Part shown: positions 4,840-64,000 of the stretch, piece after piece | Layout of the letters: every line of letters begins with the position of its first letter | Position numbering within the stretch: the stretch's first letter is position 1 | Source of the DNA: Cellvibrio sp. KY-YJ-3 | Lineage (GTDB): Bacteria > Pseudomonadota > Gammaproteobacteria > Pseudomonadales > Cellvibrionaceae | Reading direction: 5' to 3' | DNA length: 64,000 bases | Assembly (NCBI RefSeq): GCF_008806955.1 | Contig: NZ_CP031727.1 | Coordinates: 2,680,001-2,744,000, forward strand | The notes under the pieces: model-generated | What the model was told of the DNA's origin: nothing | The model's database searches: none | What the model saw: the letters and a program-made list of their open reading frames with translations, nothing else | Translations under genes and position numbers: made by a program

Positions 4840-5004
4840 ATGAGTGCTGAGTCCATGAAAGAGTTACACGAACGCAAAGATCGTCTGGAATTTAACAAGC
4901 TGCAAAAGCGCCTGCGCCGTTTGACCGGCTCGGCCATTGTTGACTACAGCATGATTGAAGACGGCGATAAGGTGATGGTGTGCCTCTCCGGCGGTAAGAT
5001 GTAG
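4840..5004 (+). pseudogene. ttcA: ttcA, 5' fragment interrupted by island insertion
   Basis: 54 codons that encode the start of the tRNA 2-thiocytidine synthetase TtcA, which thiolates cytidine 32 of some tRNAs. The typical N-terminus is visible ([20 protein letters not shown]), running into the PP-loop ATP-binding motif MVCLSGGK. There the family continues with DSY, but this frame reads M and stops (TAG 5002-5004). The remaining roughly 230-250 residues, including the CxxC iron-sulfur motifs, are absent from the whole window. A recombinase operon begins about 140 bases further on, so the break is best explained by site-specific integration inside the PP-loop codons. Confidence 0.88.
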
Positions 5005-5140
5005 CCAATAAGTATTTTGTAAAGGAAATTTTGTTTGTTTTAATGTAACCGACTAACATATATACATTTCATTCAAAAAGTCTTTACATCTTAACCAATA
5101 AGATCATATTCTGAGCTATGCGCTTATTGGATGATATATT
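4986..5140. other. Left junction and end of the integrated island (attL region)
   Basis: The ttcA reading frame stops being TtcA-like at about 4998-5001, which marks the chromosome/island boundary. Just inside are three copies of an 8-mer: CCAATAAG at 5005-5012 and 5095-5102, and its inverse CTTATTGG at 5123-5130. Such repeats are what recombinase arm or core sites look like. The segment is AT-rich and holds no gene; ginA starts at 5141. Confidence 0.6.
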
Positions 5141-6388
5141 TTGCAAGCAATCAGGCTCAGGAAATACCAGTTCAACCACAAATCCTTTGTTGCGATCGTC
5201 GATGATTGTGACTGCCCTCTCGATCCCTTTGTCAGTGCTTATCTATCCACCTTCGCTTGTCAGTCATTTAATACCCAACTGAGAAAAGCCGTTGAGCTTA
5301 CCTTTGTGCTCAAGCACTTTGCCAAGAATGGTATTGACCTACCTACGAGAATGGCATCTGGGCAGTTTGTCAGTGAAAGGGAGTACTTGCAGTTCTACGA
5401 TGCAAGTTGTCTTCAGAAAGATTCAATTGATAATAATGCAGTGTCGCTTCAAAAAATTAGCGATAAAACATTGCGAAATATAATTACAGCAAATCAAAAA
5501 TCGATGGCAAAAGTCTCCAATGAAACTCTACAGGGACGAGTTAGGAGGTTTCGTGAGTACTGCATATGGCTATTTGAGCATTTTCATGATCTATACGGCG
5601 TTGATAAAGTCCTTTCCAATAAATTTCATAAGCTAATTTCAAGAATTAAATTAGATGAAGAAGGGATAGGTGGTAATCGATTACAGAGAGTTGCAGATCC
5701 CACAGAATCCGTTATCCCTGATGACGTCTTCGCTAGACTTTTAGAAATGATATTACCATCATCTCCAAACAATCCGTTTACAGGATCTAAGGTCAGAAAC
5801 TATCTAATTGTTTCCGTCCTTTACCAAACCGGAATAAGACGTGGTGCATTGGCAAAGTTGAAGATTTCGGATTGCCATTTCTCAGGTTCGTTTGACCAAA
5901 TATCCATCTACCGATCGGGAGGAGATCCAACAGATCCCCGGCTCGATAAACCAAATCAAAAAACCAAAGCACATTTGGCGACTGTTTCACCTGTCTTAAT
6001 GCGGCAGATCAAATTTTATATTGATCATCACCGTGCAAATACTCCCAAACAACAATTGCATGACTTTATTTTCATAAGTGAGAAAAATTCGAGAGGGACC
6101 GTTGGTCAACCGATTTCGCTGAAGTCAATAAACACAATTTTTCAGAAACTTTCTGATGCGCTACAGTTTCACATTCATCCGCATTTGTTGCGACACAAGT
6201 GGAATGAGATCTTCGATAAGGAAGGAGAGTTGCAAGGTGTAGACTACAAACTGCTTGAAGACATCCGAAAATACGCAATGGGCTGGTCAGAATCATCAAT
6301 TATGACTCAGACTTATAACGACAAACGTTTGGCGCAGAAAGCTAAAGACATATCTCTTGCACATCAAAAAAGAGTGGATAGCCAATGA
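5141..6388 (+). CDS. ginA: GInt island tyrosine recombinase GinA
   Basis: Tyrosine recombinase of 415 residues. Catalytic-domain residues can be placed: Arg233 in TGIRRGAL, His348 and Arg351 in HPHLLRHKW, and nucleophile Tyr392 in MTQTYNDKR. It is the first gene of a four-gene operon lying directly at the island end. In GInt islands ginA, ginB, ginC and ginD are all needed for excision and integration (established for the family). The start is TTG; no nearby ATG in this frame fits better, and the ribosome-binding site is weak. Its stop overlaps the ginB start as ATGA, suggesting translational coupling. The name rests on operon architecture and motifs, not on alignment. Confidence 0.78.
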   Translation: MQAIRLRKYQFNHKSFVAIVDDCDCPLDPFVSAYLSTFACQSFNTQLRKAVELTFVLKHFAKNGIDLPTRMASGQFVSEREYLQFYDASCLQKDSIDNNAVSLQKISDKTLRNIITANQKSMAKVSNETLQGRVRRFREYCIWLFEHFHDLYGVDKVLSNKFHKLISRIKLDEEGIGGNRLQRVADPTESVIPDDVFARLLEMILPSSPNNPFTGSKVRNYLIVSVLYQTGIRRGALAKLKISDCHFSGSFDQISIYRSGGDPTDPRLDKPNQKTKAHLATVSPVLMRQIKFYIDHHRANTPKQQLHDFIFISEKNSRGTVGQPISLKSINTIFQKLSDALQFHIHPHLLRHKWNEIFDKEGELQGVDYKLLEDIRKYAMGWSESSIMTQTYNDKRLAQKAKDISLAHQKRVDSQ

Positions 6389-10954: not shown

Positions 10955-12379
10955 TTATAATGGGCTGCTGGATTCTTGTGCATAAATCCGATTCAATTGC
11001 AGCAACTCTTGCCGAAACCGGCCAAATACATTGATGGTAGTTTCATAGGATTGTGCCAGCACGGAAATATGAATGGGTTTCTCGTCGTTTGTGTTATTTT
11101 GTGCTTCACCTACAGGCATATTTTCAAAAATAATTTCCGTGATTTCTTCGGTATGTGATGGTTCTTGTAGCTTGATGGCTAGAGGCTGCTCATCGTCATG
11201 ATTCGGCATAGTGTCGCGTCTAATAATTGCAGATTCCGGTATTTCTTCTGCGACACGATTTGCGTATTCCGCTAGATTAGGTTCAGCCGGTAGATACAAA
11301 TAACTTTCACCGGGAATATCTCCCATACGTAAAACACGTCCCAATACCTGCCGAAAATGCAATTCTGTTTTAACCCGGGTCAAGTGGCAGCACACACGCA
11401 GCCGTGGAATGTTAGTGCCCTCGCTTACCATTCCTACAGAGATAATCCAGGGCTGGGTGCTGTTTCTAAAGGAATTAATCGTGCCGTGGGCATCTTCGTC
11501 CAAATAGGTGGCGACGCAAGCTCGCTGCCCCAAATGACGTTCCAGTAGCGTTGCAATCTTATTGGCATGTTCTACCGATGCCGCGACGATAAGGCCGCCA
11601 GCATTTTGGTGTAGCTTGCGAATTTGCATCAACTTCTTGGAGGATTTTTTTAACAAATACACAATCAGAGCATCGTTATCAATCAGTTGCTGATAGGAAC
11701 AATCTGATAACTTAAGTAGTTCTGCAAAAGATGAATATCTCTCCGTGGTATCGCCGCGTTTTACGATGATGCGATCATTGTCAACAAGCGTGATGCTGGG
11801 AACTCGACACACATTTTCCTGAATAGCTTGCGCCATTCCATAAATAAAATCACAGCGGATTTTGTTTTGCTGACAATAACTGGATAAAGCGATGGGGATT
11901 CGGTCAGAGCGCCAAGGTGTACCGGTCAAGGCAATGGTATAAGCCGCGCGCCCCTGAATATGTTCGATGATGGTTTGCCCCCAAGCATTGGCATTCTCAA
12001 GATTATCACCCGCACAGTGATGGATCTCATCAAAAATCACCAAAACACGATGTGTTTGGAACAATGCCCAAAAAGCATCTTCCAGGCTCAACATTGATTG
12101 GTAGGTCAATGATTGCCCCTTCGACCCGAGACGGCCATCCATTCGTGAATGAGTATAGGTTTCCAATGCTTGCTGGAAATCGGTAGACACAATGATTGAG
12201 GGAGAAAAACACAGTACCAAATCAACCATGCCTAGCTGTAAAAGCTGCTGCGCTAAGGTTGCCGCCATGACTGTCTTGCCTGCACCTGGGGTGGCAAGGC
12301 ACAGGAAGTGGTTCTCTTCGTTTCTGAATTTCACCAGAGCCTGTTCAACGCACCTGGATTGCCAGCGCCTTAACCTCAT
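10955..12379 (-). CDS. SF2 DEAD/DEAH-type helicase of island cargo
   Basis: Superfamily 2 helicase of 474 residues. Walker A is ATPGAGKT (Lys35), Walker B is DEIH (117-120), and a TGTPWRSDR motif and the arginine-finger segment QVLGRVLRMG (motif VI) follow, so both RecA lobes are complete. The C-terminal hundred residues are not recognised. An ATG at 12379 overlaps the upstream stop codon as ATGA, which decides the start; a longer frame to 12448 exists but lies inside the neighbour. It forms an operon with the 179-residue gene before it, controlled by the divergent XRE regulator. Helicases of this kind are common cargo on integrative elements and may serve defence or element maintenance; nothing here proves either. 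Confidence 0.8.
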   Translation of the reverse strand: MRLRRWQSRCVEQALVKFRNEENHFLCLATPGAGKTVMAATLAQQLLQLGMVDLVLCFSPSIIVSTDFQQALETYTHSRMDGRLGSKGQSLTYQSMLSLEDAFWALFQTHRVLVIFDEIHHCAGDNLENANAWGQTIIEHIQGRAAYTIALTGTPWRSDRIPIALSSYCQQNKIRCDFIYGMAQAIQENVCRVPSITLVDNDRIIVKRGDTTERYSSFAELLKLSDCSYQQLIDNDALIVYLLKKSSKKLMQIRKLHQNAGGLIVAASVEHANKIATLLERHLGQRACVATYLDEDAHGTINSFRNSTQPWIISVGMVSEGTNIPRLRVCCHLTRVKTELHFRQVLGRVLRMGDIPGESYLYLPAEPNLAEYANRVAEEIPESAIIRRDTMPNHDDEQPLAIKLQEPSHTEEITEIIFENMPVGEAQNNTNDEKPIHISVLAQSYETTINVFGRFRQELLQLNRIYAQESSSPL

Positions 12380-12915
12380 TGCGCTAAACCTGTTTCCCTT
12401 GCCAATAAGCTTTCTAATGCTTTCACACGGCCCAGCAGCTTGGAACATTTGTCCCGGGATTGGTTGTAGAGGGGTTGCACATCGTCTCTTAGTTCTGGCA
12501 TCTCACTACATATCGAGTCATATTCTTCCGTTTCGCCCATTGCGGAGAGCATTTCCAATTTATGCCGATTGAGTCGTGCTTGCAGGCTTTGGCGAGGATT
12601 ATCTTTTGGGGCAGTCGCTTTATCATGAGTCGCCAGCGGTGCGACAGTTATTACAGGCGTTCCTCCTGAGACTCTAAACCGAGGGGTTAATCGATACAAA
12701 GGCCAGCCACTCTCCACGACGACACGGGTCAATTCCTCAGTGTTGATAAGGCGCAGCATATTGCGATAAACGAACTGGCGAGCGGCTTTTTTGGAGCCAT
12801 GAAGGCATGCCGGATCGTTCAAATAGGCTTCTGTTAGATCATGCACGGTGAATTCGCGGTTTACCAGAGTTGATAGTGCAGAGAGTAACCCGGACTTAAC
12901 GGTGAGAGATTTCAT
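12376..12915 (-). CDS. Unrecognised partner protein of the helicase
   Basis: I do not recognise this 179-residue protein. It starts MKSLTVKSGLLSAL; residues about 1-75 look like a winged-helix or AT-hook-free helical domain (REFTVHDLTEAYLNDP, KAARQFVYRNMLRL). The middle is low in structure and the end is a coiled coil (SKLLGRVKALESLLARE). ATG 12915 is chosen over an upstream in-frame ATG at 12954 because a good minus-strand promoter (TTGTCT, 17 bases, TAGAAT) places the transcript start between the two. It is translationally coupled to the helicase by an ATGA overlap, so the two products probably act together. Confidence 0.6.
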   Translation of the reverse strand: MKSLTVKSGLLSALSTLVNREFTVHDLTEAYLNDPACLHGSKKAARQFVYRNMLRLINTEELTRVVVESGWPLYRLTPRFRVSGGTPVITVAPLATHDKATAPKDNPRQSLQARLNRHKLEMLSAMGETEEYDSICSEMPELRDDVQPLYNQSRDKCSKLLGRVKALESLLARETGLAQ

Positions 12916-12951
12916 GATAGAGATTGACGCCTCATGTCTCGAATTTCGCGC

Positions 12952-12981
12952 CATTCTATCCTGTCTCTATCATCGAGACAA
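12952..12981. promoter_or_regulatory. XRE operator inside divergent helicase/XRE promoters
   Basis: The palindrome TGTCTC-N7-GAGACA spans 12962-12980 and touches the XRE start codon. It lies between the -35 (TTGTCT) and -10 (TAGAAT, 12957-12952) of a minus-strand promoter with a 17-base spacer. On the plus strand TATCAT (12968-12973) could be the -10 of the XRE gene, which would make that message leaderless. Related half-sites recur at 12914-12923 and 12935-12942. Autorepression is the natural reading. Confidence 0.6.
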
Positions 12982-13968: not shown

Positions 13969-14039
13969 GCTGGCGTGTGGTCCAGTCCGGCACGCACATG
14001 CTTGGCCCCGATGTTAGTCCTAAGATAGGTTCGGTATCT

Positions 14040-17000
14040 ATGTCAAGGTCACCGCGTCGTCCTTTAATTGAAGCTCTGGAGCCAAGATTATTGTTCTCTG
14101 CCACCGCAGATATTGCCCTGTTTGACGGTGGTTATGCTGACGTGCAGAGTTTAGCGCAGGCCGCAGAAACGGCGGATCTGGTTAGTATTTACATGCCAGA
14201 CCCACCGTCGATGATGGAGAACCATACTAATGGACTCGACAGTCATGTTGAACCTCAAGCCGATATTGGCCCAATTGCGCAGCCTAATATTACTGCGGTG
14301 GTCTTTGTAGATTCTGGGGTCGCTGACTATCAGGTTTTAGTTGATGATATTCGCACCCACTCAAACGCTAATTCGATGGCGATTATCTATCTTGATCCAC
14401 AAAGCAATGGTATAGAGCAAATTACAGTTGCTCTGGCGCAATATTCTGGTCTACGTGAAGTTCACATTATTTCTCACGGTTCGGCGGGTGCGGTGGAATT
14501 GGGTAAAGCAATCCTTAGCGATAATAGCCTTGTCCAATATGAAGACAACCTAAATGCTTGGGGTAAATCCCTTAGCGCTGACGCCGATATTTTGTTTTAT
14601 GGATGCGATGTTGCTATTCACCCAGCGGGTAAGGCCTTGGTTGAAAAAATTGCTCTCCTAACCGATGCCGATGTGGCAGCAAGTGAAGACTTTACGGGGC
14701 ATTCATCCCTAGACGGCGACTGGGATTTGGAGTACACGGTCGGTAGGATAGAATCGCAGGTTTTAATCAGCTCCGCGATGCAACAATCTTTTGTTGGGGT
14801 AATGGCAACTACGCATTATATTAATATTGAGGGTGGGTCGAGCAGTCAGGCATTTTCAAATGCATCCAACATTGGACAAACGTTTGTTTACGATAGTCCT
14901 GTAGCGACCTATACGGTCAATCAATTCAGCCTGCAATTAAAGCGAGACCCCACTGCAGCAGATCAAAATATCACGCTAGAGTTACGCAGCGGTGACTACA
15001 ATGGCACATGGCTGGGTAACTCTACTGTAAATGTCAGTGCGCTGAGCACCAATTTTGACTGGGTAACTTTCAATCTTGGTGATTTTGTCCTGAATGATAA
15101 TCAGCAATATACCATTCGACTAATTAGCACGGGTTCGGATAGCAAAGTCTTTGCCGCTTATAGCGCAACCAATCTTTGGAATAATTCAGAGCTAGTCGTC
15201 AATGGTGTGGCGAATAGCACCGCCGATTTATCATTATTGGTGTCTTATTACGATGGAGTGAATACACCACCTCAGGGCTTTAATTGGGCGATAGATACAC
15301 CCGAAGATACACCACTTGTATTAACGGCAGCTAATTTTGGTTTTAGTGATCCCGTTGACAAACATAATTTTGCTGGCGTAGTGATCAGTAGTTTACCTGG
15401 CGCCGGTAGCTTGACCTTAACTGGCGTCGGGCAAGTTAGCGTTAATCAATTTATTACCATTGCAGATATCAATGCGGGGAAATTGGTTTTCACGCCAACG
15501 GCAAATGAAAATGCCACGAATTATGCGCAGATCGGTTTTCAAGTGCGCGATGATGGCGGTGGTACAGATACGGATCCGACACCTAACACATTGACCATTG
15601 ATGTGAGCTACGTGAATGATGATCCCGTCAATACAGTTCCGGCGGGGCCGATTACTACAGTAGAAGACACGACTGTTGCTATTTCGGGTGTTAGTATTAG
15701 CGATATCGACGACTACAATCTTTGGGATGTGGAAGTAACCTTAAGTGTTAGTCACGGTGTTTTATCTGTTAGTGGTGGCTCAGCCGCTATTTCAGGTAGT
15801 GGTACCGCCACCGTGGTATTAACCGGCACTATGGCGCAAATTAATGCAACACTTGCCGCTACGCTTAACTACACCCCAGCCAGTAATTTTTTTGGTGCCG
15901 ATGTTTTCACCATAGTGACCAATGATAAAGGTGCAGGTCGTACCGGAGACTTTGATAAAACAGATACAGACACAGTAGCCATCAACGTTACTTCAGTTAA
16001 TGATGCACCTATCGTTGCCAATGCAATTCCCGATCAATCAACCAATGAAGAGTCACTTTACAGTTATACATTTCCAGCCAATACCTTTAACGATGTTGAT
16101 GGCAATACGCTGACCTATACCGCTACTTTATCGGATGGAAATCCACTTCCTGCGTGGCTCAATTTCAATGTGGGTACGCGTACGTTTAGTGGTGTCCCTG
16201 ATGACGGCGATATTGGCACCATCAGTATTAGAGTTACCGCCAACGATGGATTTGGCGGAACAGTAAACGACACCTTTGATTTGACCGTAGTCAATATCAA
16301 TGATTTGCCCTTTGTGAATATTCCGATTCCTAATCAAAGTGCGACTGAAGATGCAGTGTTCAGTTACAGTTTTCCAGCCAATACATTTGGCGACGGTGAT
16401 GTAGGCACTAGTTTTACTTATACTGCGACCCTAGTTGATGGAAACCCATTGCCAGGTTGGTTGAGTTTTGACTCAGCCACGCGCACATTTTCAGGTACGC
16501 CAGCAAATGACGATGTAGGCACTCTCTCGGTAAGAGTCACCGCGAATGATGGTGCAGGGGCAACGGTTTCAGACAATTTTGATATCCTCATCGCGAACAC
16601 CAATGATGCGCCGACGGTGGTAAATCAAATACCGAATCAGAACGCGACCGAAAATTCGCTGTATAACTACACTTTTCCAATCAATACGTTTAATGACCAA
16701 GATGTAGGTGACACGTTAACCTACAGCGCGCAAATTCCCGGTGGGGCGCCATTACCGGCGTGGCTTAGCTTCGATGCGGCAACCCGTACATTCAGTGGTA
16801 TACCCTCCAATGGCGATGTTGGGAATGTCACCATCGAGGTAATTGCAAATGACGGCACCACCACTGTGTCGGATTTTTTTGATTTGCAGGTTCACAACGT
16901 TGGTGCCACCAATGTTAATTACGAATCTTCGGGTGCTGCGACAAACACTCAGTCTATTTCTGCGGGCGTGCCTCTTTTTCAATCGTTTGCACATGACAGC

Positions 17001-23653: not shown

Positions 23654-23674
23654 TGGGGTGCGGGAGGGCGCGAG

Positions 23675-49018: not shown

Positions 49019-49046
49019 TAGCGTTTATGATTGTCTCAAAACGAAG

Positions 49047-49075
49047 GAGCTAGCCAGCAATGGTTGGCTCTTTTT
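49047..49075 (+). terminator. Terminator after the first GH50 gene
   Basis: An imperfect 10-bp stem GAGCTAGCCA / TGGTTGGCTC is followed by five T. Confidence 0.8.
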
Positions 49076-49151
49076 ATAACGATGAAACATCTGATCACTA
49101 AATCCAATACGGGTTTGCAATTTCCATAATGATAAATAATAGTGGATTTTT

Positions 49152-51509: not shown

Positions 51510-51558
51510 TTGTTTAATTCCTATAGCTGATCATCCACATGTCTTTCTCTTCTTAAAG

Positions 51559-51585
51559 CTGCGGCCTTATGCCGCAGATTTTTTT
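51559..51585 (+). terminator. Terminator after the PhoD-like gene
   Basis: A 7-bp stem CTGCGGC / GCCGCAG with a 5-base loop, then A and seven T. Confidence 0.9.
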
Positions 51586-51621
51586 GTTTAGACGAAAAGG
51601 TTATTTTCCTGACTATTGAAT

Positions 51622-51634
51622 AATGTTAACAATT
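51622..51634 (+). promoter_or_regulatory. TGTTAACA-type operator before the GH16 pair
   Basis: AATGTTAACAATT, with a further TTAACAT directly after, lies 136 bases before the first GH16 ATG and follows a terminator, so it belongs to the GH16 promoter. Confidence 0.65.
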
Positions 51635-51770
51635 AACATATATTTGGGTTGTATTGATTAGACATAGATGTCGCCTGACTTATAAAAATAATAATTAACC
51701 TAGTTCAATTAACGTCATATCAACAAGCGTTTTTCCGTCCCGTATAAAAATAATTTCGTGGAGTTCTGTT

Positions 51771-54645: not shown

Positions 54646-55076
54646 GCGCACCTGTCGGTTCGCCGACTACGCCAGCACCGGTGGCCATGATCATACAAGC
54701 GGAAAGTTTTTCAGCAACGGGCGGTGTTTACGATGGCTTTAAGACCTATAGCGTAAATGGAGTAAGTGCGATTAATTACAATCAGCGTGGCGACTGGGCG
54801 GATTACGCCGTTAATGTAGCGGCCGACGGCAGCTACACCTTCAACGCTTATGTCAGTTCACCCATGTCGGGTGCTGCGCTGGAAGTCAGTGTTGATGGAG
54901 TAAAAGTATTAACTCAAGCCGTGCCCAATAATGGCAGTTGGGATAGTTTCCAAAAAGTCAGCTCTGCCAGCAAAATTGCCCTAACCAAAGGCGCGCATAC
55001 TATTCGCGTCACTAGTGCTGGCACCACCTCATCGACCTGGGAGTGGAATGCAGACAAGTTTGAATTGATACCCTAA
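53283..55076 (+). CDS. Secreted GH16 beta-agarase with two CBM6 modules
   Basis: 597 residues from ATG 53283 (GGAG upstream; the frame extends back to 53217 without a good start). Signal peptide ends near LASFAA. Catalytic motif Glu149-Ile-Asp151-Ala-Met-Glu154 sits in STQEIDAMESYG. A serine linker (about 293-319) joins a first CBM6 (320-454); a short Pro-Thr linker joins a second, less similar CBM6 (466-597). The first CBM6 is nearly the same as that of the upstream enzyme, so the two genes share a duplication. A strong terminator follows. Confidence 0.93.
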   Translation: MKKITSCIAAALLLSAPLASFAADWDSVPIPAAAGTGKTWQLQSISDEFNYTASPTVKPAEFNTRWNPSFINSWTGPGDSEFNAGHSYTSGGSLALQSSAKAGTNKIYTGIISSKETFTYPLYLEARVKHTGNTLANAVWMLSADSTQEIDAMESYGSDRAGQEWFDQRMHVSHHVFIRSPFQDYQPKDEGSWVVNPAGGTWRGAMHVYGVHWKDPWNLDYYIDGVKVRTVSGPAMIDPYNFTNGTGINKPLHIIIDVEHQDWRDVRPTAAELADTSKSIMFVDWIRVYKPVTSSATSSSNSVSSSSSSLSNSSSSSATTVIDFANYFDTGKSTASVAGDTYVGFNKSGSGNINYNTAGDWADYLVTLPSDGQYKIEVTTASPMTSGIGAKLSVDGIYVSTTSLAATGGWELYSASTLANNLSIGAGTHTVRIESTGTSAWQWNGDEIRVTKVGSAPVGSPTTPAPVAMIIQAESFSATGGVYDGFKTYSVNGVSAINYNQRGDWADYAVNVAADGSYTFNAYVSSPMSGAALEVSVDGVKVLTQAVPNNGSWDSFQKVSSASKIALTKGAHTIRVTSAGTTSSTWEWNADKFELIP

Positions 55077-55124
55077 TAATATTTTGCGCGCGTAGTTTTA
55101 AATATCTATTAAATAATCAATGAT

Positions 55125-55179
55125 AAAAAGATCCAGCAATCGCGATATGTTTATATCTCAATTGTTGGATCTTTTTTTT
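55125..55179 (+). terminator. Terminator after the GH16 pair
   Basis: A-run, GATCCAGCAAT, about 20 bases, ATTGTTGGATC and eight T. An 11-bp stem with one wobble pair. Confidence 0.85.
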
Positions 55180-55268
55180 GGTTAAACAGGATTTTTGGAA
55201 TTGGATGAATCCCTGCAATTAGCTTGTAGTGGTAAATCTAATTAAGATAAAACTTAAGGATTTCATAA

Positions 55269-55529
55269 ATGAATATTAAAAATATCTTCATATTACCTTG
55301 CGTTATCTTAATGCTTTCTGCTTGCACAGGGCGGGAGATTGTCTCCGGTGTGGCTCAATTTGAAGCAGATAAATACTGCAGTAACACCAGTGATATTAGC
55401 TACTTGCAATGTGGAACCCAGGTTGATGATGAGTATGTAAAAAATAGACTGTTAAAAGAACAGCAATTGCGTGAGGCTGATGAAGCTCTGCGACAAGAAA
55501 AGTTGGAGCAATTAAAAAAAGCCAAATAA
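55269..55529 (+). CDS. Small lipoprotein
   Basis: 86 residues. Signal peptide with lipobox LMLSAC (Cys20) and a charged helical C-terminus (NRLLKEQQLREADEALRQEK). Three further cysteines lie in the middle. I do not recognise a family. It has AAGGA about ten bases upstream and its own gap after a terminator, so it is probably expressed separately from the agarases. Confidence 0.65.
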   Translation: MNIKNIFILPCVILMLSACTGREIVSGVAQFEADKYCSNTSDISYLQCGTQVDDEYVKNRLLKEQQLREADEALRQEKLEQLKKAK

Positions 55530-55538
55530 CTAAGGTGG

Positions 55539-55727
55539 GTGATTGGCCCTTATCAAAAACGTAATCTGTTGCTGGAAAACCTTAAGAAAATCGAATGGAA
55601 AGCGGGTGAGCCTGCTATATTTATTGCTGCTGAATCAGCCCGGATGCAAGCGATAAAGCTATATGTAAAGAGTCAGCCAGGTTATAGTAAAATCCAAACT
55701 TACGCATCTGGATACTGGAAGGCATAA
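55539..55727 (+). CDS. Possible small protein after the lipoprotein gene
   Basis: 62 residues, basic, starting at GTG 55539 with AAGG just upstream and 9 bases after the lipoprotein stop. It contains IEWKAGEPAIFIAAESARMQ and ends in YASGYWKA. Unrecognised. The close spacing and protein-like composition support a real gene, but nothing else does. Confidence 0.4.
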   Translation: MIGPYQKRNLLLENLKKIEWKAGEPAIFIAAESARMQAIKLYVKSQPGYSKIQTYASGYWKA

Positions 55728-55869
55728 ATACAGAATCTCTCATATCAACTATCAAAATGAAGATGCTGAGGCTGCATTAATTTCCGGGGAAAATAAATAC
55801 AGCCTCAGCTCGACAATAGGTTTGACACTCGCGATCGCGATTATTGTTAAAAAAATAGTTTTTCTTTTA
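55728..55869. other. Gap between convergent genes
   Basis: A 10-bp inverted repeat GCTGAGGCTG (55765-55774) / CAGCCTCAGC (55800-55809) with a 25-base loop may act as a weak terminator. No gene seen. Confidence 0.45.
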
Positions 55870-58188
55870 TTATTTTCCAAAACGCTTAATGTAAAGGCTT
55901 TTATTGACTTCTTGCGCCGCCTTTACTAAGGGTGTGTAGGGGATGTCGGCAACACTTACAAAACCCACATTATAATTCTCACCGTCATAAGCCCGCCCAG
56001 TTAATGGCGAGTCAATATACTGAAACCAGTGTGCCCCCACAAAATAGGGGTTTTCAATCACACTATTGAGATAGCTTTTATATTTTTCACCGCGATCAAA
56101 TTGAGATTCTGCATGTATTAACCCAGGGTTTAAGAGGCCAGAGTCAATGGCGCCATTATGGAATTCACCAATAATGCTGGGTTTGTCTAACTCAGCTAAA
56201 AAATCCCAATAAGGTTGATCAATACCTTCCCTATAGTAGTTGTAGCTCATCACATCTACATATTTTGCGGCGGCTTTTAGTACTTCAGGTGTCATAGCCC
56301 AATGCGCAAAGCGTGGGCCCATATACAGATGATTCGGCATATATTTTGTTAGTGCTTTATCTACGCGACTGAAGTAGGCATCAGCATAAAGATAAAGCAA
56401 TTCAGAGAAGTCACCCAGCATTTGTGCATTATAAGATGTCAGCTCTACCGGCCGAGACAGCTGTGCCCAAGAAGTATGTTTTAAATCCCATGCGGTATTT
56501 AAACTTTCTATATTCTGATACTTATTTTTCAGATGATTGATAAACTCCTGTTTTAAGGGGCTGTCATTAGCATACTTTTTTAATCCATTGATAACAATTC
56601 CATACTGGAGCGAAGGGCTACCCATGCTCCCCCAGCTTTTTTCATTATCAATAAATACGCCTACACACCATGGGTTGTTTTTTACTTCATCGGCTATTTT
56701 TTTAATGGCCTTGTTGGTGCGCTGTGTAAATACTGGGTCAAATGGATCGGGCATGGCACCCCAATAGTCGTTGCCTGAATTAACTGTTTTGAAGTCACCA
56801 ATAATCCAACCATTAGCAAAATAAGGAAGTCTATTCATTTGATAGAAGCTAGCGTCCACCCAATTACCAAAGGATGTAAAGCCCCAATTATGCATACGTT
56901 TGATGGTGGTGTCGCGCCAGTCTTGCATTAGTGCTTCTTCATTTTGCGTGGCGTATTTACGGGCTAAATTAGCTCTATAGAAACTAAAGGTTTCGCCTTT
57001 TTTTAAGCTGCCAGAATGTACGCTGCGGCGATATCCATAATTGGCGCCTGCAGCTTCACTGTAGCTGGGCAGCCAAGTAAACATATCAGCCCTCAATTGG
57101 GAGCTTATATGACGCGATGACCAAGCTTGTTTCGGGGCAGTGTTTAAACCTATCGAATCTTCGGGGGTGTAATCGCCAGCATCTCGTTGTTTGATTAGGG
57201 CAGCATCAAAATCATAACCGGTAATGGTTGAGGTGTTCGCCATGCGAATATTGGCAATACCATTCGAGAAAAATAGATATCCTTCTGGATCAACGAGAGA
57301 CCATTTACCCTGATATTTCTCAGCCCGAAAGTAACCGGTACTTTTTAACTTGGGGCCATTTATCCAGCCATTAAATGTTGAACGGGATGGGAATTGTTGG
57401 TCAGTTAAATTTTCTTGCTCTTGTTGTGAAAAACTACGTAATTGATCGGCGCTGTAAACCTTCCCAGCGAAGTCTTGTTTTGCATTTTGGCCATACTCAT
57501 CAACTAAACCAGTGAGGTATTCTGGGTCAAAATTATTAGGTTTAACTACGCGGAGGTTATCAATGATTAATTGTTTATTTTCCAATACGCCTGAAATAAG
57601 CAGACGAATAGATGTGATTGCACTAGTGTCGAGTGTTTTTGTGCCGCCTCGCCAAATAGTTGAAATATAGTTATGGGGCCAACTGGGTGGGTCGTTGCGA
57701 ATTCCGGTATTAAGAAGAAAAGATGGTACTTTAAGTTCAATTAAGTAACTGTTATTTGATTCAGCTGGTACGGCGACATTACTTAGTTGAAATGCTCCGC
57801 TTTTATCGTAAGTATATATGTAGATGTGGGTTGAACTTTTTGTTGAATTTTCAATATCTAACACGAGAGCTGCTGATTCATAATCATTAAAATTCCATGT
57901 GTTTGACGGGTTGATGTAAACCGATGAATCATGATTGTTGAGTGAGTCAAAATTGATTTCTAACCCGTGATTTCCCTCATTAACAATGAGTTTCGATCTG
58001 GCGTTTTGTAGCTCAATTGCTTTTATGTCGCTCTCGTTTTCAAAATCAAGCAGAATGCGTTCTTTAACTTCAAGCAGGTTAATTTTATCATTCTTGCCTT
58101 TTTTGTGTTTTGGTTCAGCGCAGGATGCTATTAAAAATAGACTAATTATGCACAATATAATTTGATTAAGATGTTGTGAGTTTTTCAT
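55870..58188 (-). CDS. Second GH50 beta-agarase, lipoprotein
   Basis: 772 residues from ATG 58188, where AGGA lies nine bases upstream; the frame extends to 58215 but would overlap the FecR-like gene. Lipobox FLIASC gives a lipoprotein. Architecture equals the GH50 at 46622: N-terminal jelly roll, then barrel with Glu516 (FIDNEKSWGSMG) and Glu675 (IIGEFHNG). The two proteins are clearly paralogous but well diverged along their length. It is the last gene of the GH117-FAD-sigma-FecR operon. Confidence 0.92.
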   Translation of the reverse strand: MKNSQHLNQIILCIISLFLIASCAEPKHKKGKNDKINLLEVKERILLDFENESDIKAIELQNARSKLIVNEGNHGLEINFDSLNNHDSSVYINPSNTWNFNDYESAALVLDIENSTKSSTHIYIYTYDKSGAFQLSNVAVPAESNNSYLIELKVPSFLLNTGIRNDPPSWPHNYISTIWRGGTKTLDTSAITSIRLLISGVLENKQLIIDNLRVVKPNNFDPEYLTGLVDEYGQNAKQDFAGKVYSADQLRSFSQQEQENLTDQQFPSRSTFNGWINGPKLKSTGYFRAEKYQGKWSLVDPEGYLFFSNGIANIRMANTSTITGYDFDAALIKQRDAGDYTPEDSIGLNTAPKQAWSSRHISSQLRADMFTWLPSYSEAAGANYGYRRSVHSGSLKKGETFSFYRANLARKYATQNEEALMQDWRDTTIKRMHNWGFTSFGNWVDASFYQMNRLPYFANGWIIGDFKTVNSGNDYWGAMPDPFDPVFTQRTNKAIKKIADEVKNNPWCVGVFIDNEKSWGSMGSPSLQYGIVINGLKKYANDSPLKQEFINHLKNKYQNIESLNTAWDLKHTSWAQLSRPVELTSYNAQMLGDFSELLYLYADAYFSRVDKALTKYMPNHLYMGPRFAHWAMTPEVLKAAAKYVDVMSYNYYREGIDQPYWDFLAELDKPSIIGEFHNGAIDSGLLNPGLIHAESQFDRGEKYKSYLNSVIENPYFVGAHWFQYIDSPLTGRAYDGENYNVGFVSVADIPYTPLVKAAQEVNKSLYIKRFGK

Positions 58189-58204
58189 TGGTAGGTTCCT
58201 GGTG

Positions 58205-59773
58205 CTAATGGCCAACAGTATTTTTTTTCATTAGGTTTTTAATCTGCGGTTCATCAAGAGCCGAGTCAAAGATGTATAGTTCATCTAATTGCCCGCGGAA
58301 AAAACGATTATTTTGATTGGTGTTTTGATCATCAAACGCAATATTACGACCCATGGTTAATGGTTTTGAATTTGGGTGATTAAGGTCGGTAAAGACTTTA
58401 GCTATAGATTTGTGATCGCTGTATTCTAAGTTGCCATCTACATAAATAAGGACATTTGTACTAAGATTTGCGTCTTTGCCACCAAATAAAACAATTGCTA
58501 AGTGATGCCAATTGTCATCGCGTAAGTCGGTAGTTCCCACTATTTCACCTTGATTCGTTCCTATACGGATGCGACCAAGGGGGCCACTAACAGCTAATGG
58601 ATTCAATGAAATTTGCCATGCGGATTGCACATCGCTCAAACCCCAATTCAATATTCCAAACCCTTGTGATAAAGAAAAATCTTTAGGTGCTTTCAACCAA
58701 AAAGCCACAGTTCGAGGTTTGTGCCCGCCGATCCCTTTATATACAGTGGCCAGCCAGCTGTTTTCACCATCAAAATTAACGGCATTTCCAAATTTACCTG
58801 GTACGGTTGATATGCCTGCAAGTTTCTTGTTTAGTGAATTTACTTTTGCGTTGTAACATTTTCCGTCTATTCCCGTCCCGACACAGGAAAATTCTTGTTG
58901 TGACAACTCATCAAAAGACCAATGCAGGTAATTGGGTTGTGCTACTGATTGACCAGGAAGGCTGCGCATAAAATGATTGGGGTTATTTTTAATGTGAATA
59001 ACCTGTTGTTGTAAATCAAAGGCGCGCGCTTGATCTTTCACTAATAATTGGTAGGGTTGATCGGTGCTGGCTCTTACTTTTACTTCACCGGTAAGTACGT
59101 GCACCTGACTTTTTCCATCATCTTCAACACTAACGCCAAACTCTGTACCTAAATCAATAATGCTCGAACTGGGCGTGTCAACTTTGAAACCGGTGGCGGC
59201 TGGCGGTACATTGGCCACTAGTTTTCCGCGTCTTAACAATAGGTGCTCATCCGATAGTATATCTACACTCATTGGTGCTTCTAATAAAAGACGAACACCA
59301 TTTTTCAGCGTGATTTCGGCATAACCTTGGCTTAAGGAAAAAGGGCCTGATAATATTTTCTGCCCTTCAGTCAATGGTTTGCCTGAAGAAATGGCGGAAA
59401 CAACTCGATATACCGCACCTACCTCGGTAATTTCCGGGGAAAAAATCTTTAGTACAAACAGAAAAGAAAAAAAGCTAATGGCTGCAGCTAGTGCATACCA
59501 GTGTCGCTTGATATTGAATATCTTTACAGTTTGGTTGCGTATGGCAGGTTGGCTATTATTGCCATAACGACTATTAAGTTTCTGTTCTAGTTTTTGCACA
59601 AAATCATCTGTTGAGTTTTCATTTAATAAGTGACCCAATTGCCTGTGCATGGCACGTTGACTAGCTAACTTATTTAACAGCTCTGGATTTTTAGCAATGG
59701 CTTCTGCCAATTGCGACCCAACTTTTTCGCCTGCGAGATAGTCCGCTATTAATTGTTCGTCATGATTTCTCAT
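58205..59773 (-). CDS. FecR-type anti-sigma factor fused to a LamG domain
   Basis: 522 residues. Cytoplasmic N-terminal region (about 1-88, binds sigma), one membrane span (about 91-112, YALAAAISFFSFLFVLKIF), a periplasmic FecR domain (about 120-240, NGVRLLLEAPMSVDILSDEH; IIDLGTEFGVSVEDDG), and a C-terminal LamG/concanavalin-like sandwich (about 280-515, AVNFDGENSWLAT; DDNWHHLAIVLFGG; FRGQLDELYIFDSAL). LamG domains often bind sugars, so the protein could sense agar fragments directly. It overlaps the sigma gene by ATGA. FecR-LamG fusions with this sigma type are best known from Planctomycetes and Verrucomicrobia, which hints at transfer. Confidence 0.85.
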   Translation of the reverse strand: MRNHDEQLIADYLAGEKVGSQLAEAIAKNPELLNKLASQRAMHRQLGHLLNENSTDDFVQKLEQKLNSRYGNNSQPAIRNQTVKIFNIKRHWYALAAAISFFSFLFVLKIFSPEITEVGAVYRVVSAISSGKPLTEGQKILSGPFSLSQGYAEITLKNGVRLLLEAPMSVDILSDEHLLLRRGKLVANVPPAATGFKVDTPSSSIIDLGTEFGVSVEDDGKSQVHVLTGEVKVRASTDQPYQLLVKDQARAFDLQQQVIHIKNNPNHFMRSLPGQSVAQPNYLHWSFDELSQQEFSCVGTGIDGKCYNAKVNSLNKKLAGISTVPGKFGNAVNFDGENSWLATVYKGIGGHKPRTVAFWLKAPKDFSLSQGFGILNWGLSDVQSAWQISLNPLAVSGPLGRIRIGTNQGEIVGTTDLRDDNWHHLAIVLFGGKDANLSTNVLIYVDGNLEYSDHKSIAKVFTDLNHPNSKPLTMGRNIAFDDQNTNQNNRFFRGQLDELYIFDSALDEPQIKNLMKKNTVGH

Positions 59774-60345
59774 TCGCTTTCTCCTTGCTGCTGTTTAATA
59801 ATGCAATCGCGCAGCCATTCACGGCAGCGATATAGCCGCATGGTCATTGTTGAATGTTTTACGGTAAATTTTTCACAGAGTTGTTTCACACTAAAACCCT
59901 CAACGTAATGATCGCGTAATATCGCCTGTTGATCAGGCTCAAGCTTCAAAAAACATCCTGAAAGCCCGGTAAAATCAATTGCATCCTCCGTGCTTATGCT
60001 CCCGCTTAATTGTTGTGTGTCTAGTAACTCTTGAATAATGTCGGGTTCATAAGGTGTGGAGCGCAGATGCTTTCGGCGATGATTGCGGATAAGATTTAAA
60101 GCAATACCAGAAATCCATGAACGAAAAGCGGCAGGGTCATTTATTTTTTTTAAATTCTCATAGGCCAATATAAATGCCTCTTGTGCGAGGTCATCTACAT
60201 CTTGAGTGTATTCAGTGCGGCTGGCTATAAAAGCGCGCAAATAACGTTGATTTAGCTGCACTAGTTTACTGAAAGCAGACCGATCACCCGCTTGAGCCGC
60301 CTTTACATTGGTGCATACATCTTTGTCGGCTACTTTATTTTCCAT
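59770..60345 (-). CDS. ECF sigma factor (Planctomycete/Verrucomicrobia-like)
   Basis: 191 residues. Region 2 spans about 15-95 (RYLRAFIASRTEYTQDVDDL, AQEAFILAYENLKKINDP, FRSWISGIALNLIRNHRRK) and region 4 about 125-185 (LEPDQQAILRDHYVEGFSVK, TVKHSTMTMRLYRCREWL). The pattern recalls the Rhodopirellula/Verrucomicrobium sigma family. It is translationally coupled to its FecR-LamG partner, which should hold it inactive at the membrane. Targets are unknown; its own operon, with GH117 and GH50, is the obvious candidate. Confidence 0.88.
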   Translation of the reverse strand: MENKVADKDVCTNVKAAQAGDRSAFSKLVQLNQRYLRAFIASRTEYTQDVDDLAQEAFILAYENLKKINDPAAFRSWISGIALNLIRNHRRKHLRSTPYEPDIIQELLDTQQLSGSISTEDAIDFTGLSGCFLKLEPDQQAILRDHYVEGFSVKQLCEKFTVKHSTMTMRLYRCREWLRDCIIKQQQGESE

Positions 60346-60448
60346 AAAGCTACTCTTGGCTGACTCATGAAATTTTCGAAAAAAGAATGAGTTTTAAAAA
60401 ACCTATTACAGATTTAATTAGGGGCATTCTCTTGTAAACGCTAAATCT

Positions 60449-62731
60449 TTACAGAATTTCAATTGCAAATAGACTGGCGGGAGCGCCAGCTTCAGTATGA
60501 GACAATTCGATATTTAAACAATTGGACAGCAGTGGAGGGTTAAAATGAATGATCTTTATGCTTTGATAATTTCCCGCGCAGGCATATAGCTCTTCGCCAT
60601 ATGCATTTAATACGCGGATGGTCTGTACACAACAAGGCATTTGAGTTTCTGGATGCTCCATCAGTACAGTTTCTAAGGCGTGATCAGCATCAGTATCGAA
60701 AAATAGTTTTAGCCCAGTTATTTTAACGTTATCTGACCAAGATAATTCGATATTAGGGTTTTTATCTTCAAGTTTAGCAACCCAAGCATTTGTGCCGAGA
60801 TAAGGGCGAATAAAACCACCGCGTAAATGCTCTGCCGAATAAGGTTTGAGTGCGGGCGATAGGTGTAAGGCAAGATTATGTCCATTGGGGCGACGCTCAG
60901 GCGTCCAAAATTCAAATGCGTCTAAACCACTATTTTCGGGCGGGTCTTGGCGCCCAGTGTTTGAAACAGCCTTATGCACTTTGTTAAGCAGTGTGCATAA
61001 CCCAGTTATACGTTGGTCGCTCAACGCCAGACTCAGGGTGTTATTGCGCATAAAACATAAAAACCCATATTGTTGCTGACTTAATTCAGCCGTAAATTCT
61101 ATATCGATATTTTGTTCACCTGGTGTAAGTGGTAACTCAATTCTTTCCACTAAAATATCGGGCGTATAGTTTCCGGTTTTACTGCTTATGCGTAATTCGC
61201 AGATCAAAATGCTTTCCGTTTGTGCGCGCACATCGACACTTATCTTTGGCACCGGGCCTGCGTTCAATGGGAGTAATTGCGCCAAACTTTGGTCTAATGT
61301 TTTGAATTCACCATTAGGGCGCAAATCATTTAATTCGAATGTGGAGCTGACTTTAATCTTGGCTTTTTGCATTAAAAGAGAAGGTGATATCGGAATCAGG
61401 GGGATTGACTGTCCATTAAGATTCAAGCGTTGTTGAAGTTCTCGCATGTGTTTAGGCGCAAGTAGTGCAGCGGGTTTGCAATTCAACTCACGGCAAAAGG
61501 CGGCAGCCTCGCCAACTGCCTGACCACCATGGGCACAGGTAATCATTACGCGAGTGGATCCAAAAGCCATATGGCTTGCACTGATAATGCGTCCCGCTAA
61601 AAATAGATTATCAATATCACGACTCACAAAACAACGATAGGGAATTTGATAAACCCCTTTAGAGTGAAATTGCGAGCATGCAGGCTTATCGCTATAGATG
61701 CCTTCGGCTGGATGTAAATCAATCGCCCAGCCGCCGTAAGAAACTGCATCGTCGAAAATGTGTTGCGTCACAATATCCTGTTGCTTCAGCATGTAATGCC
61801 CTTCGAAACGCCTACTTTCGCGCTTGCCCGGAATAGTGCCCACCCATTCTAAGGTTAAGTTTTCTACGTCTTCAAATTTTCCGCTATTTTTTATGTAATC
61901 CCAAATGCCATAAACAATTTTCCAAAGCTCCCATTTTATATCTTCACTTTGGTAGATCGTATCAAGCACGCCGCCAAATTCTAACCACCAAAACTTACAA
62001 CCGGAATCATTGCCATTAATATTTTTGCAGCGAGGAATAGCGGCAATTTCTTCGTGGCTATAAGCAAAGTCAGGTTTGGTGAATACCACTGGACGGTCTA
62101 ATTTTTTACTGTAAAAAAATAACGAATGACCGAGTAAGTCGGTACTTTCATTTTTAGGCGCCATGAGTTCGCCAAACTCATCGCAAGACTCTGCACCCAT
62201 ACGAAAACTTGCACCAGCATTAAAAGCCAGTATGCCATCACCACTTGCGTCACAAAATAACGGGGCATTAATATGGTATTGAGTAGAGTTTTGGCTACAA
62301 AAGGCTAAAACGCTGTCTATGTGTGTAGCTAAGGTTTTATTTACTTGAAATACTGCAGTGTTTAACAGCAGAGTGATATTAGCTTCAGCGGCAACTTTAT
62401 TTAACAAAATACTATCAAAAATTAGCGCATTACCCAGTTGATTTTGTTTTAAGTTGTCAAGCATGATCTCATCAATCACGCCTCCCTCACGCGACCAGCG
62501 ATTATTATTGCCCATGTGAGAGGTGGCACCGAGGGCCCAGAGTCTAACTTCGGAAGAGGCATTGCCACCGAGCACAGGACGATCTTGTACTAATACTACA
62601 CGGCTGCCTGCGCGCGCTGTAGTTATAGCTGCACAAACTCCCGCTAAACCACCACCTGCAATCACTAAGTCGGTATTAATAACTATTTCTTTGTTTAAAC
62701 GTGATGTTGAACTAAAGGGTGTAGTAATCAT
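60449..62731 (-). CDS. FAD-dependent oxidoreductase with C-terminal sandwich region
   Basis: 760 residues, no signal peptide. Rossmann FAD loop DLVIAGGGLAGVCAAITTARAG at residues 21-42, GGNASSEVRLWALGA, and a second FAD segment DIDNLFLAGRIISASHMAFG (about 370-390) place the first 430 residues in the PF12831 FAD_oxidored family. The remaining 320 residues are beta-rich and may form a discoidin-like module. The family is frequent in carbohydrate loci but its reactions are largely unknown. It lies 37 bases after GH117 and before the sigma gene, so it may process a GH117 product in the cytoplasm. Confidence 0.8.
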   Translation of the reverse strand: MITTPFSSTSRLNKEIVINTDLVIAGGGLAGVCAAITTARAGSRVVLVQDRPVLGGNASSEVRLWALGATSHMGNNNRWSREGGVIDEIMLDNLKQNQLGNALIFDSILLNKVAAEANITLLLNTAVFQVNKTLATHIDSVLAFCSQNSTQYHINAPLFCDASGDGILAFNAGASFRMGAESCDEFGELMAPKNESTDLLGHSLFFYSKKLDRPVVFTKPDFAYSHEEIAAIPRCKNINGNDSGCKFWWLEFGGVLDTIYQSEDIKWELWKIVYGIWDYIKNSGKFEDVENLTLEWVGTIPGKRESRRFEGHYMLKQQDIVTQHIFDDAVSYGGWAIDLHPAEGIYSDKPACSQFHSKGVYQIPYRCFVSRDIDNLFLAGRIISASHMAFGSTRVMITCAHGGQAVGEAAAFCRELNCKPAALLAPKHMRELQQRLNLNGQSIPLIPISPSLLMQKAKIKVSSTFELNDLRPNGEFKTLDQSLAQLLPLNAGPVPKISVDVRAQTESILICELRISSKTGNYTPDILVERIELPLTPGEQNIDIEFTAELSQQQYGFLCFMRNNTLSLALSDQRITGLCTLLNKVHKAVSNTGRQDPPENSGLDAFEFWTPERRPNGHNLALHLSPALKPYSAEHLRGGFIRPYLGTNAWVAKLEDKNPNIELSWSDNVKITGLKLFFDTDADHALETVLMEHPETQMPCCVQTIRVLNAYGEELYACAGNYQSIKIIHFNPPLLSNCLNIELSHTEAGAPASLFAIEIL

Positions 62732-62768
62732 GAAGGGACTCTGAAAATTCTATGTTTTAAAATTTAGA

Positions 62769-63947
62769 TTATGGATTGGATTTTCTAGCTTTTATTTGAT
62801 CGGGGCTTAGACTCTGATAGAAATATACCTCAGGTTTATGCACCAGATCTGTTTCTTTCATGTCAGTGTTATTGCTGTCGGGGATTAAATTACAATCAAA
62901 TCTGCCGAGAAAGCTGAATTTTTTATCAGATTTTTCTTTGTCGCAAAAATGTGCTAGCCCCCAGCGGATTCCTTGCCCATTACCGGAGTCATCAAACGCA
63001 TCTGGCACATAGGGGCCTGCTGCAATCGGCATTAAAGAGCTGACAGCCGCTAAGCTAAAGTTCACGCCATCTTCTGCATATTGAATCGTATTGTTTTCAT
63101 TGCCATTGCGTGTAGCTAAGGCAGCAATACCTTTTTTAAAGGGGAAAAAACATGTTTCATGCCCTGAATTTAATACGGGGTTTAAGGCGTGTTTTTTAAA
63201 GGGTCCCAATGGTGATTCTGCGATAGCCAAACCATTAGCCACTAAATATTCAGGCCTATCACCAAAGGCGGCTTTGTAATAAAGATGAATTTTATTGTTA
63301 TAGATAAGTAAATAAGGATCATGAATGGAGTATTGATCCCACTCACCGGGTGCACCATTAGGTACCACCACATTGCCGCAGGCTTGCCAGGGGCCATTGG
63401 GTGAATCAGACATCGACATGGTTACCGGGCAGTGATCACCCTTAAGTCCACTTGCTTCCATGAACGCCTGATAATAAAGATAGAATCTACCCTTCCAAAT
63501 TAGAATGTCAGGAGTGCTCACGGAGCGCCAGCCAAGCTCAGGTTTTTGTGGGCGTTTGATTGCCACTCCTTGTTCTTGCCAACTAAAGCCATCTTTGCTT
63601 GTCGCGTACCATATTTCTGCTAAATCCCAATCTGTTGATGGAATTTCATCGCTACATTTAAGCGGCCCTTGGGGTGCTGCGATGGTGTGACGTTTGGTAT
63701 ACCAAACATAAAAAATTTCATTGTGTTTAATGATTTTAGAGGGGTCTCGACGAGAAACTCTCCCTGTATCACCTTGGTAATCAAAACCTTCTATTCGCGT
63801 ATATTTAAAACTGCTGAATAGATCATTGTCCTCTGGGCGAGGGCTTTGGTAATTATCATAGAGTCTACTCATTGCGGCACTTAACTCACGCTTAGGGCGC
63901 TGTTGAGGAATGTCCCATGGAAATCCGCCAGAATCTTGGTCGCTCAT
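62769..63947 (-). CDS. Second GH117-family glycoside hydrolase
   Basis: 392 residues, cytoplasmic. It keeps the GH117 active-site pattern: Asp68 in SRRDPSKI, Asp210 in IHDPYLLI, His263 and Glu264 in NSGHETCFF. Overall it is distant from the GH117 at 33553, with a different N-terminus (LSAAMSRLYDNYQSPRPEDN) and substrate-side loops. Some GH117 clades do not hydrolyse neoagarobiose, so its substrate may be a variant such as a methylated or sulfated unit. AAGGAG seven bases before ATG 63947. It is the first visible gene of the operon running to GH50. Confidence 0.88.
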   Translation of the reverse strand: MSDQDSGGFPWDIPQQRPKRELSAAMSRLYDNYQSPRPEDNDLFSSFKYTRIEGFDYQGDTGRVSRRDPSKIIKHNEIFYVWYTKRHTIAAPQGPLKCSDEIPSTDWDLAEIWYATSKDGFSWQEQGVAIKRPQKPELGWRSVSTPDILIWKGRFYLYYQAFMEASGLKGDHCPVTMSMSDSPNGPWQACGNVVVPNGAPGEWDQYSIHDPYLLIYNNKIHLYYKAAFGDRPEYLVANGLAIAESPLGPFKKHALNPVLNSGHETCFFPFKKGIAALATRNGNENNTIQYAEDGVNFSLAAVSSLMPIAAGPYVPDAFDDSGNGQGIRWGLAHFCDKEKSDKKFSFLGRFDCNLIPDSNNTDMKETDLVHKPEVYFYQSLSPDQIKARKSNP

Positions 63948-64000
63948 TAATTGCTCCTTGAAAACAATTTATCTTTACCTAAAAGTATCAGAGCAATTGC

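Follow-up and report, generated by a model that had tools for sequence, protein, structure and literature searches.

A probable GInt-type island at the PP-loop codons of ttcA in Cellvibrio sp. KY-YJ-3, with a replacement ttcA and an agar/porphyran locus

In Cellvibrio sp. KY-YJ-3, a 64,000-base stretch of contig NZ_CP031727.1 (bases 2680001-2744000 of one 4,489,528-base contig; hereafter the window, with positions past 64000 given as window-equivalent) contains a ttcA gene that breaks off within its PP-loop, a cluster of recombinase genes directly behind it and, further on, genes for the use of agar. This arrangement raises the question of where the inserted DNA ends, and whether the agar genes belong to it. 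Sequence comparison leads us to conclude, with high confidence, that a GInt-type island of 110,626 bp cut the host ttcA at the PP-loop, and that it carries a replacement ttcA together with an agar/porphyran locus.

Island boundaries and the recombinase module

The host ttcA is cut at its SGGK(DS) codons, as the original prediction had it, with host sequence ending in GGTAAG (4993-4998, Table 1), and the product of the remaining 5′ stump is 98% identical across 53 residues to its intact counterpart in G007, the closest congener examined. The original prediction had reported neither a ttcA 3′ part nor a second junction within the window and had pointed beyond 64 kb, and it was correct in both respects: the ttcA remainder lies on the same contig at genome position 2795625 (window-equivalent 115625), 51.6 kb past the window end. 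There, the right junction reads GGTAAG followed by GACTCTTACACC, which encodes GKDSYT, and the remainder, next to the same 6-bp core, continues as GKDSYTMLD. Within the 64-kb window, a 32-base pattern allowing up to three mismatches matched only the left junction itself, revealing no second junction (shuffle mean 0.00).

Counted between the left and right cores, with the cores excluded, the island measures 110,626 bp. It is flanked by a perfect 7-bp direct repeat, CGGTAAG (counted without an imperfect extension), and its ends form an inverted repeat, the first 12 nucleotides past the left core matching the last 12 before the right core at 9 of 12 positions, with the outer eight perfect. Of 727 GGNAAR sites in 140 kb, counted on both strands, the right end has the best arm match (9/12; runner-up 8/12), and none of the six best sites lies near 13.6 kb, where a right end would, by the original prediction, have spoken against it. 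The last 422 bp of the island are 65% A+T, and its overall G+C content is 44%, compared to 50-51% in the flanks.

An empty site is present in G007, in line with the suggestion that congeners bearing an intact ttcA be compared: an uncut ttcA spans the position, and the flank matches (1619999-1612171 and 1612177-1606267, 81-82% DNA identity) have 7 bp in common where they meet. More broadly in the genus, 18 of 20 other genomes have a single stop-free ttcA match starting at residue 4-6, and the left neighbour gene of ttcA is the same in 18 of 20. The ttcA of G020 is split across two contigs, and that of G002 (L031, G002:C42), a draft genome, matches residues 34-248 only, perhaps through an assembly fault, with the PP-loop uncut.

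Directly after the stump follows the predicted four-gene module (5141-10753), in which three recombinase genes overlap, the fourth gene abuts the third and all are co-oriented. In GinA, residues H348, R351, H352, W382 and Y392 are invariant in all rows compared (13 of 14). GinB keeps an NRxRHT...Y motif, with R213/R214, R382, H383 and the tyrosine retained and the first box-II histidine missing. GinC residues R228, H523, R526, H527, W546 and Y558 are invariant; R228 sits in a TPSRL motif, is invariant in both a 9-row and a 13-row comparison, and is the putative first catalytic arginine. One locus with a split ginA match (L050) was omitted from the conservation count and from the Gin tree. The next gene ends about 200 bp past ginD, and the cargo starts there. 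The element would thus be a GInt by its architecture, its ends and its target behaviour, an assignment made independently of the published GinABCD sequences.

Table 1. Features of the island and of the interrupted ttcA, in window or window-equivalent positions.
Feature	Position	Strand	Description
Host ttcA, 5′ part	4840..4998	+	MSAESMKE...CLSGGKM-stop; host sequence stops at GGTAAG
attL, 6-bp core GGTAAG	4993..4998	+	Gly-Lys codons of the TtcA PP-loop (SGGKDS)
Left island terminus	4999..5140	+	73% A+T
ginA-like tyrosine recombinase, 415 aa	5141..6388	+	PF00589, E 4e-13
ginB-like recombinase, 553 aa	6385..8046	+	NF041502 site-specific integrase, E 5.5e-23, under curated cut-off; no Pfam match
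ginC-like recombinase, 768 aa	8036..10342	+	No Pfam match; HxxRH...W...Y kept
ginD-like small protein, 136 aa	10343..10753	+	After ginC in 13/13 relatives, 39-71% identical
RadD/PbeA-like helicase gene and partner gene	10955..12954	-	Recurrent passenger pair
Agar/porphyran utilisation cargo	13977..64000, on to about 108400		Pfam
Carried complete ttcA, 297 aa	114309-115202 (L008:10310-11203)	-	TtcA model 477 bits, cut-off 272
attR core	115625-115630 (L008:11626-11631)		Followed by ttcA 3′ part to 116386

The agar/porphyran cargo and its occurrence at other sites

With the ttcA remainder at 115625 and an empty site in G007, the 110,626-bp element encloses the genes for agarases, galactose use and the TonB receptor, as had been proposed, with the proviso that the agar block could have joined it later. 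Within the window, this cargo encodes a giant Ig/cadherin-like protein, GalT, GalK, a GalE-like protein, a DGOK kinase, hydrolases resembling glycoside hydrolase (GH) family GH43, a TonB receptor, agarases, CBM6 proteins, a sigma factor and FecR. Pfam matches across 53 island proteins, one of them shortened by the locus end, comprise three Agarase_CBM proteins, which we take to be GH50-type, two porphyranase-domain proteins, presumably GH86-type, two GH16 and two GH43-like proteins and many CBM6 modules. Matches to metabolic enzymes include GalT, GalK, the GalE-like protein, the DGOK kinase, an aldehyde dehydrogenase, a short-chain dehydrogenase/reductase and an enolase-superfamily enzyme, along with a KDPG-type aldolase and a P450-ferredoxin-reductase trio. 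We assume that these enzymes fit an anhydrogalactose pathway combined with 6-O-methyl removal from porphyran sugars. As judged from gene content, the cargo appears to form a complete locus for agar and porphyran catabolism, which at about 95 kb makes up most of the island; no conjugation gene was seen among the 53 proteins scanned with Pfam.

The same cargo occurs at other sites in congeners. Three of 20 congeners (G004, G014 and G019) have a match to a GH50-type gene of the window with 93-96% amino-acid identity, and more distant homologues match in 28 of 144 family genomes, the own genome included. The original prediction had named an agar locus at this same position in strains lacking the recombinases as evidence that would speak against it; instead, the three congeners carry the locus elsewhere, with ttcA intact and more than 500 kb away or on another contig. 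The collinear block corresponds to window-equivalent 10959-111812 in G014, 13749-108485 in G004 and 20412-108400 in G019, with gaps, its long pieces being 82-97.5% identical. Among ten cargo genes compared in these three genomes, DNA identity is 88-99% in the 26 of 30 gene-genome pairs that align in full, short or absent matches being confined to the TonB receptor gene (G014, G019) and to one GH50-type gene and the enolase-superfamily gene (G019); the backbone genes ttcA, pilZ and ald are 72-81% identical where aligned. The giant DUF4347/Ig/cadherin-like protein (13977-20222) has 2081 residues here, and the matching open reading frames (ORFs) encode 2453 residues in G004 and 2552 in G014.

The surroundings of the block differ from genome to genome. 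In G014, it lies within 109.8 kb between ffh and yjbQ, genes whose matches in G000, G007 and G004 are separated by 127-140 bp and in G019 fall on different contigs. At the yjbQ end stands a second quartet (L152, L153; G014:C1:635376-640748), identified from gene order, size and motifs, in which three recombinase-like genes overlap and the fourth gene is small. BLAST revealed no clear similarity between this quartet and the gin genes of the window, and three of its four proteins were scanned against NCBIfam, with no match. No remnant of the quartet was found in the window's island, only a HAD gene having matched among the proteins searched. In G004, an integrase gene by mutS borders the block (L139; G004:C2:810164-811468), P4-like by reading, with NCBIfam matches under the cut-off; on the other side lies a DRT-type reverse transcriptase gene. 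No integrase was found among the ORFs listed at the block borders of G019. As read from these alignments, the agar/porphyran pathway is common to several species at high identity and joined to different integration modules.

These occurrences bear on an alternative history, in which ttcA was first entered by the recombinase module, by itself or with little cargo, and the agar block arrived later, through another element or by homologous recombination, as a passenger at the site. That G004 and G014 hold the same block elsewhere, in the company of different integrases, speaks for such a course, as do the sizes: the four other elements with both ends on a single contig (described below) span only about 21.6-31 kb, and the published GInt dimensions (cargo up to at least 70 kb, island up to at least 76 kb; PMC5385486, of which, as of the other articles cited here, a part was available) fall below those of the window's island. 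Homology to G014 begins about 200 bp past ginD, as expected for a whole-block swap and equally for ordinary GInt cargo. Nevertheless, the agar block is bounded by features of the element family, with ginD on the left and the carried ttcA and attR on the right, and no further core between ginD and attR has arms that match as well. A later arrival of the block is therefore a possibility that we consider rather unlikely, and we favour the reading in which the agar locus is cargo of the island.

Related elements, their cores and the carried ttcA

A GinC scan of genome contigs, from a collection described as covering 84,980 species, returned 13 loci in Pseudomonas, Stutzerimonas, Halothiobacillus, Marinobacter, Pseudohongiella, Halomonas/Vreelandella, Alcanivorax and an unclassified gammaproteobacterium. 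In all 13, ginABCD is directly preceded by a stump that ends in the PP-loop SGGK. The stump belongs to ttcA in 12; in Halothiobacillus (G428; L060, L043), the cut gene, as shown by its remainder, is another PP-loop gene, 33-35% identical to TtcA at the protein level, and the recombinases may therefore read the DNA of the motif rather than the gene. The right end was located in ten of these loci, each of which has a full TtcA gene near the right core, on the island side and in the orientation of the host gene.

An independent 390-genome sample of the order, in which scoring was limited to two candidates per genome and weaker modules may therefore be missed, gave ten genomes with GinC matches, the own genome included. 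The other full-length matches (G781, G663 and G683) belong to elements in ttcA with an intact TtcA gene directly after ginD. None of the six weak homologues has a ttcA stump beside it; each of these genomes has an uncut ttcA elsewhere and none has an extra intact copy, G783 having a degenerate piece. In total, there are 17 elements including the window's, with the right end known in 14 and an intact TtcA gene on the island side or after ginD in 14 of 14; the target motif of the 16 relatives is the same as in the window, 15 lying in ttcA and one in the other PP-loop gene. Single-sequence searches with GinB and GinA found few relatives (3/369 and 3/57, including the own genome), the matches outside the own genome being weak.

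Two further observations concern the distribution of these genes. A Pseudomonas aeruginosa plasmid (L082, NZ_CP129201.1) carries a gin module with ginA and ginB in pieces and ginC and ginD near full length, and no ttcA piece was found near it in the stretch searched. The helicase gene of the window's island, paired with that of its partner of about 200 residues, recurs in six of the 13 scan loci (within flanks of up to 10 kb; L039-L042, L045 and L050), in the plasmid copy L082 and in the G014 island, and a RadD/PbeA-like helicase gene without the partner stands in the right-end loci of G433 and G436; the two are possibly a defence pair of the element family.

All attL and attR cores of the elements read GGNAAR, encoding Gly-Lys. 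The two six-mers of an element differ in ten of 14 cases, at wobble bases only, and are equal in the window's island; the arms match at 5-10 of 12 positions in 11 elements. Among the seven elements with Pseudomonas-like Gin proteins (L039-L042, L044, L045 and L050), attL is GGCAAG in six, while the six known attR copies take five forms. This variety at attR resembles the donor footprint of strand-biased circularizing elements (SEs; PMC10214605), and suggests that these elements came from other ttcA alleles. The attR six-mers may record the previous host, which would make donor tracing testable from sequence, and the same applies to the question of strand bias, open for GInts in the available part of PMC10214605. 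The inverted arms, the 6-bp spacer and the wobble-only differences at the cores, so like the SE footprint, could also mean that the element is itself an SE rather than a GInt. In the SE gene order, however, a protein lacking the catalytic set comes second, whereas here most of the set is retained in the second protein as well as in the third (the SE set being taken from its description), making this assignment improbable, and we retain that of a GInt-type island.

The ttcA copy carried by the window's island, which had no place in the original prediction and lies outside the window, stands 422 bp from the right core on the island side. Its product retains SGGKDS, CGLC and CNLC and is 66% identical to the host's own C-terminal part. 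Some 75 bp away from this copy is an IS256-family transposase gene (L008:9027-10235; window-equivalent 113026-114234), accompanied by inverted repeats of 12 bp (112980 and 114239). Phylogenies of 68 and 80 rows were built with 18 of the 20 other genus genomes (without G002 and G020) and the 29 best-scoring loci from the 313 of 369 class-sample genomes that matched. The Halothiobacillus host protein (L060_host), a different PP-loop protein of 33% identity on a very long branch, was dropped from both trees; the host piece beside L061 was too short, and L069 represents that host. In both trees, carried TtcAs separate from those of the hosts, and the host proteins cluster with their respective relatives. 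A clade of the larger tree (100/96) unites 13 of the 14 carried copies with a sequence (L094) from a metagenome-assembled genome (MAG; G094), and a single clade of all 14 copies with L094 is not rejected (approximately unbiased test, p 0.573). In the smaller tree, which lacks G783, the copy from the window's island is sister to the other carried copies and L094 (99/91). L094 is perhaps a source or left-over of the lineage, and no GinC match was found in its genome, which is 81% complete.

Several results weigh against a uniform history of this kind, or against our reading of the island as a whole. The larger tree pairs the window's carried TtcA with that of G783 (98/87), next to the clade of 13, and in the smaller tree, a clade of 11 carried copies without L094 is rejected (p 7.8e-05). 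Among the 14 carried ttcA copies, only that of the window's island is inverted. The Gin and carried-TtcA trees also conflict on the position of the window's element, the Gin tree placing it with Halothiobacillus and Marinobacter (96/99), while the carried TtcA of Halothiobacillus groups with Pseudomonas (86/96). Given the tree placement and the inverted position, a separate or exchanged origin of the carried ttcA in the window's island is quite possible, which, if true, means that ttcA replacement arose more than once. Beyond the window, three of the 17 elements, in the MAGs G429, G431 and G432, have neither a right end nor an intact TtcA gene in the assembly, and both ends lie on one contig in only five of 14 (the window's, G427, G430, G428 and G781); in most draft genomes they lie on different contigs, and there the assignment to a single element rests on the ends. 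Finally, what we say of excision, a circle and transfer comes from sequence alone.

Strict co-inheritance of Gin and carried TtcA, considered as one explanation, is unsupported for the window's element owing to the tree conflict. A further idea, in which recoding of the target would make the carried ttcA immune, was rejected, as there was no clear excess: host and carried genes have 1-2 of the six SGGKDS codons in common, compared to 31-43% of codons elsewhere at identical residues (10 pairs, leaving out Halothiobacillus (G428), G781, G663 and G683 among the 14 right-end elements). In G783 (L194, L206), the neighbour of the window's carried TtcA is the sole full TtcA, with a degenerate ttcA-like piece also present.

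It is very improbable that the carried ttcA is a chance passenger that does not compensate for the insertion: ttcA is non-essential in Escherichia coli, GInt cargo is varied and the copy lies by attR, inverted by attR or after ginD, but it is present in 14 of 14 right-end elements, no extra intact ttcA accompanies the distant Gin modules outside ttcA (six of six genomes, with the degenerate piece in G783), and 13 of 14 copies with the MAG sequence form a single lineage apart from the hosts' TtcA.

Proposed route of the island and comparison with known systems

In the route that we propose, the ginABCD-like recombinases would insert the island at GGTAAG, the Gly-Lys codons of the ATP-binding PP-loop of TtcA, splitting the host gene into a 5′ stump and a 3′ remainder and leaving a 6-bp direct repeat. 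GinABC would most likely cut and rejoin at these six bases with GinD assisting, and the element would leave as a circle, by excision or copy-out, with the predicted joint TATTGGCTTTAC-GGTAAG-ATGTAGCCAATA, before entering another ttcA. The carried TtcA would take over tRNA thiolation, and since a full-length, divergent copy would keep thiolation going, insertion should cost the host little despite striking a catalytic motif. We infer the mobility, the excised circle, the function of the carried TtcA, growth on agar and a route from cell to cell from this arrangement.

We lean, with modest confidence, towards a more general view: that gammaproteobacterial islands with a recombinase trio target the PP-loop codons of TtcA and repay the host with a dedicated lineage of ttcA, reacquired in the window's branch from another source, and that this chassis is one of at least three integrase modules combined with a 90-100 kb agar/porphyran pathway in the genus. 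A catalytic motif would offer a near-identical DNA target in distant hosts, and replacing the broken gene would let the element afford it. The island would then be a worked case in which a whole polysaccharide-eating lifestyle could move as a single unit.

GInts have ginABCD at one end and cargo past ginD (up to at least 70 kb in islands of up to at least 76 kb), insert site-specifically between direct imperfect repeats of 10-17 nt, have a GinC without the first catalytic arginine and excise as circles, for which all four genes are essential (Bardaji et al. 2017, PMC5385486). The window's element resembles them in its three recombinases and small protein at one end, cargo after ginD, an A+T-rich far end, short flanking repeats, 6-nt staggered cuts and a fixed target, and differs in hitting the ttcA PP-loop, in carrying a replacement of the cut gene and in its 110.6 kb; "ttcA" occurs 0 times in the part of that article available. 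With SEs it has in common four core genes, inverted terminal arms and a 6-bp spacer with a donor footprint at attR, whereas SEs have the order intA-tfp-intB-srap, a second protein without the RHRY set and a smaller size (median 15.7 kb; PMC10214605). On the side of the cargo, the 77-kb agarase cluster of Cellvibrio sp. KY-GH-1 is likewise large, with several GH16 enzymes, and is described as a gene cluster, with no mobile element mentioned in the available part of the report (PMC10163192). Among the matches listed from the open-licence literature (titles and abstract starts), which covered ttcA with islands or recombinases, replacement copies and agar loci on mobile elements, we recognised no description of this element type, and the evidence that it is new to the literature is weak.

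At the level of the target, the Rac prophage also integrates in E. coli ttcA. It differs as a lambdoid prophage that uses IntR and XisR at the ttcA 5′ end, its excision altering four N-terminal residues (PMC4632033), and the available part of that article does not mention a second full ttcA. Closer in its logic, a mobile element in recA of Vibrio cholerae S24 likewise inserts in a host gene and brings a divergent full copy, for which compensation was proposed (PMC4405046). There, the gene is recA and one element is described, while here it is ttcA, with 14 elements in several host families; the S24 recA island is the clearest precedent for gene replacement.

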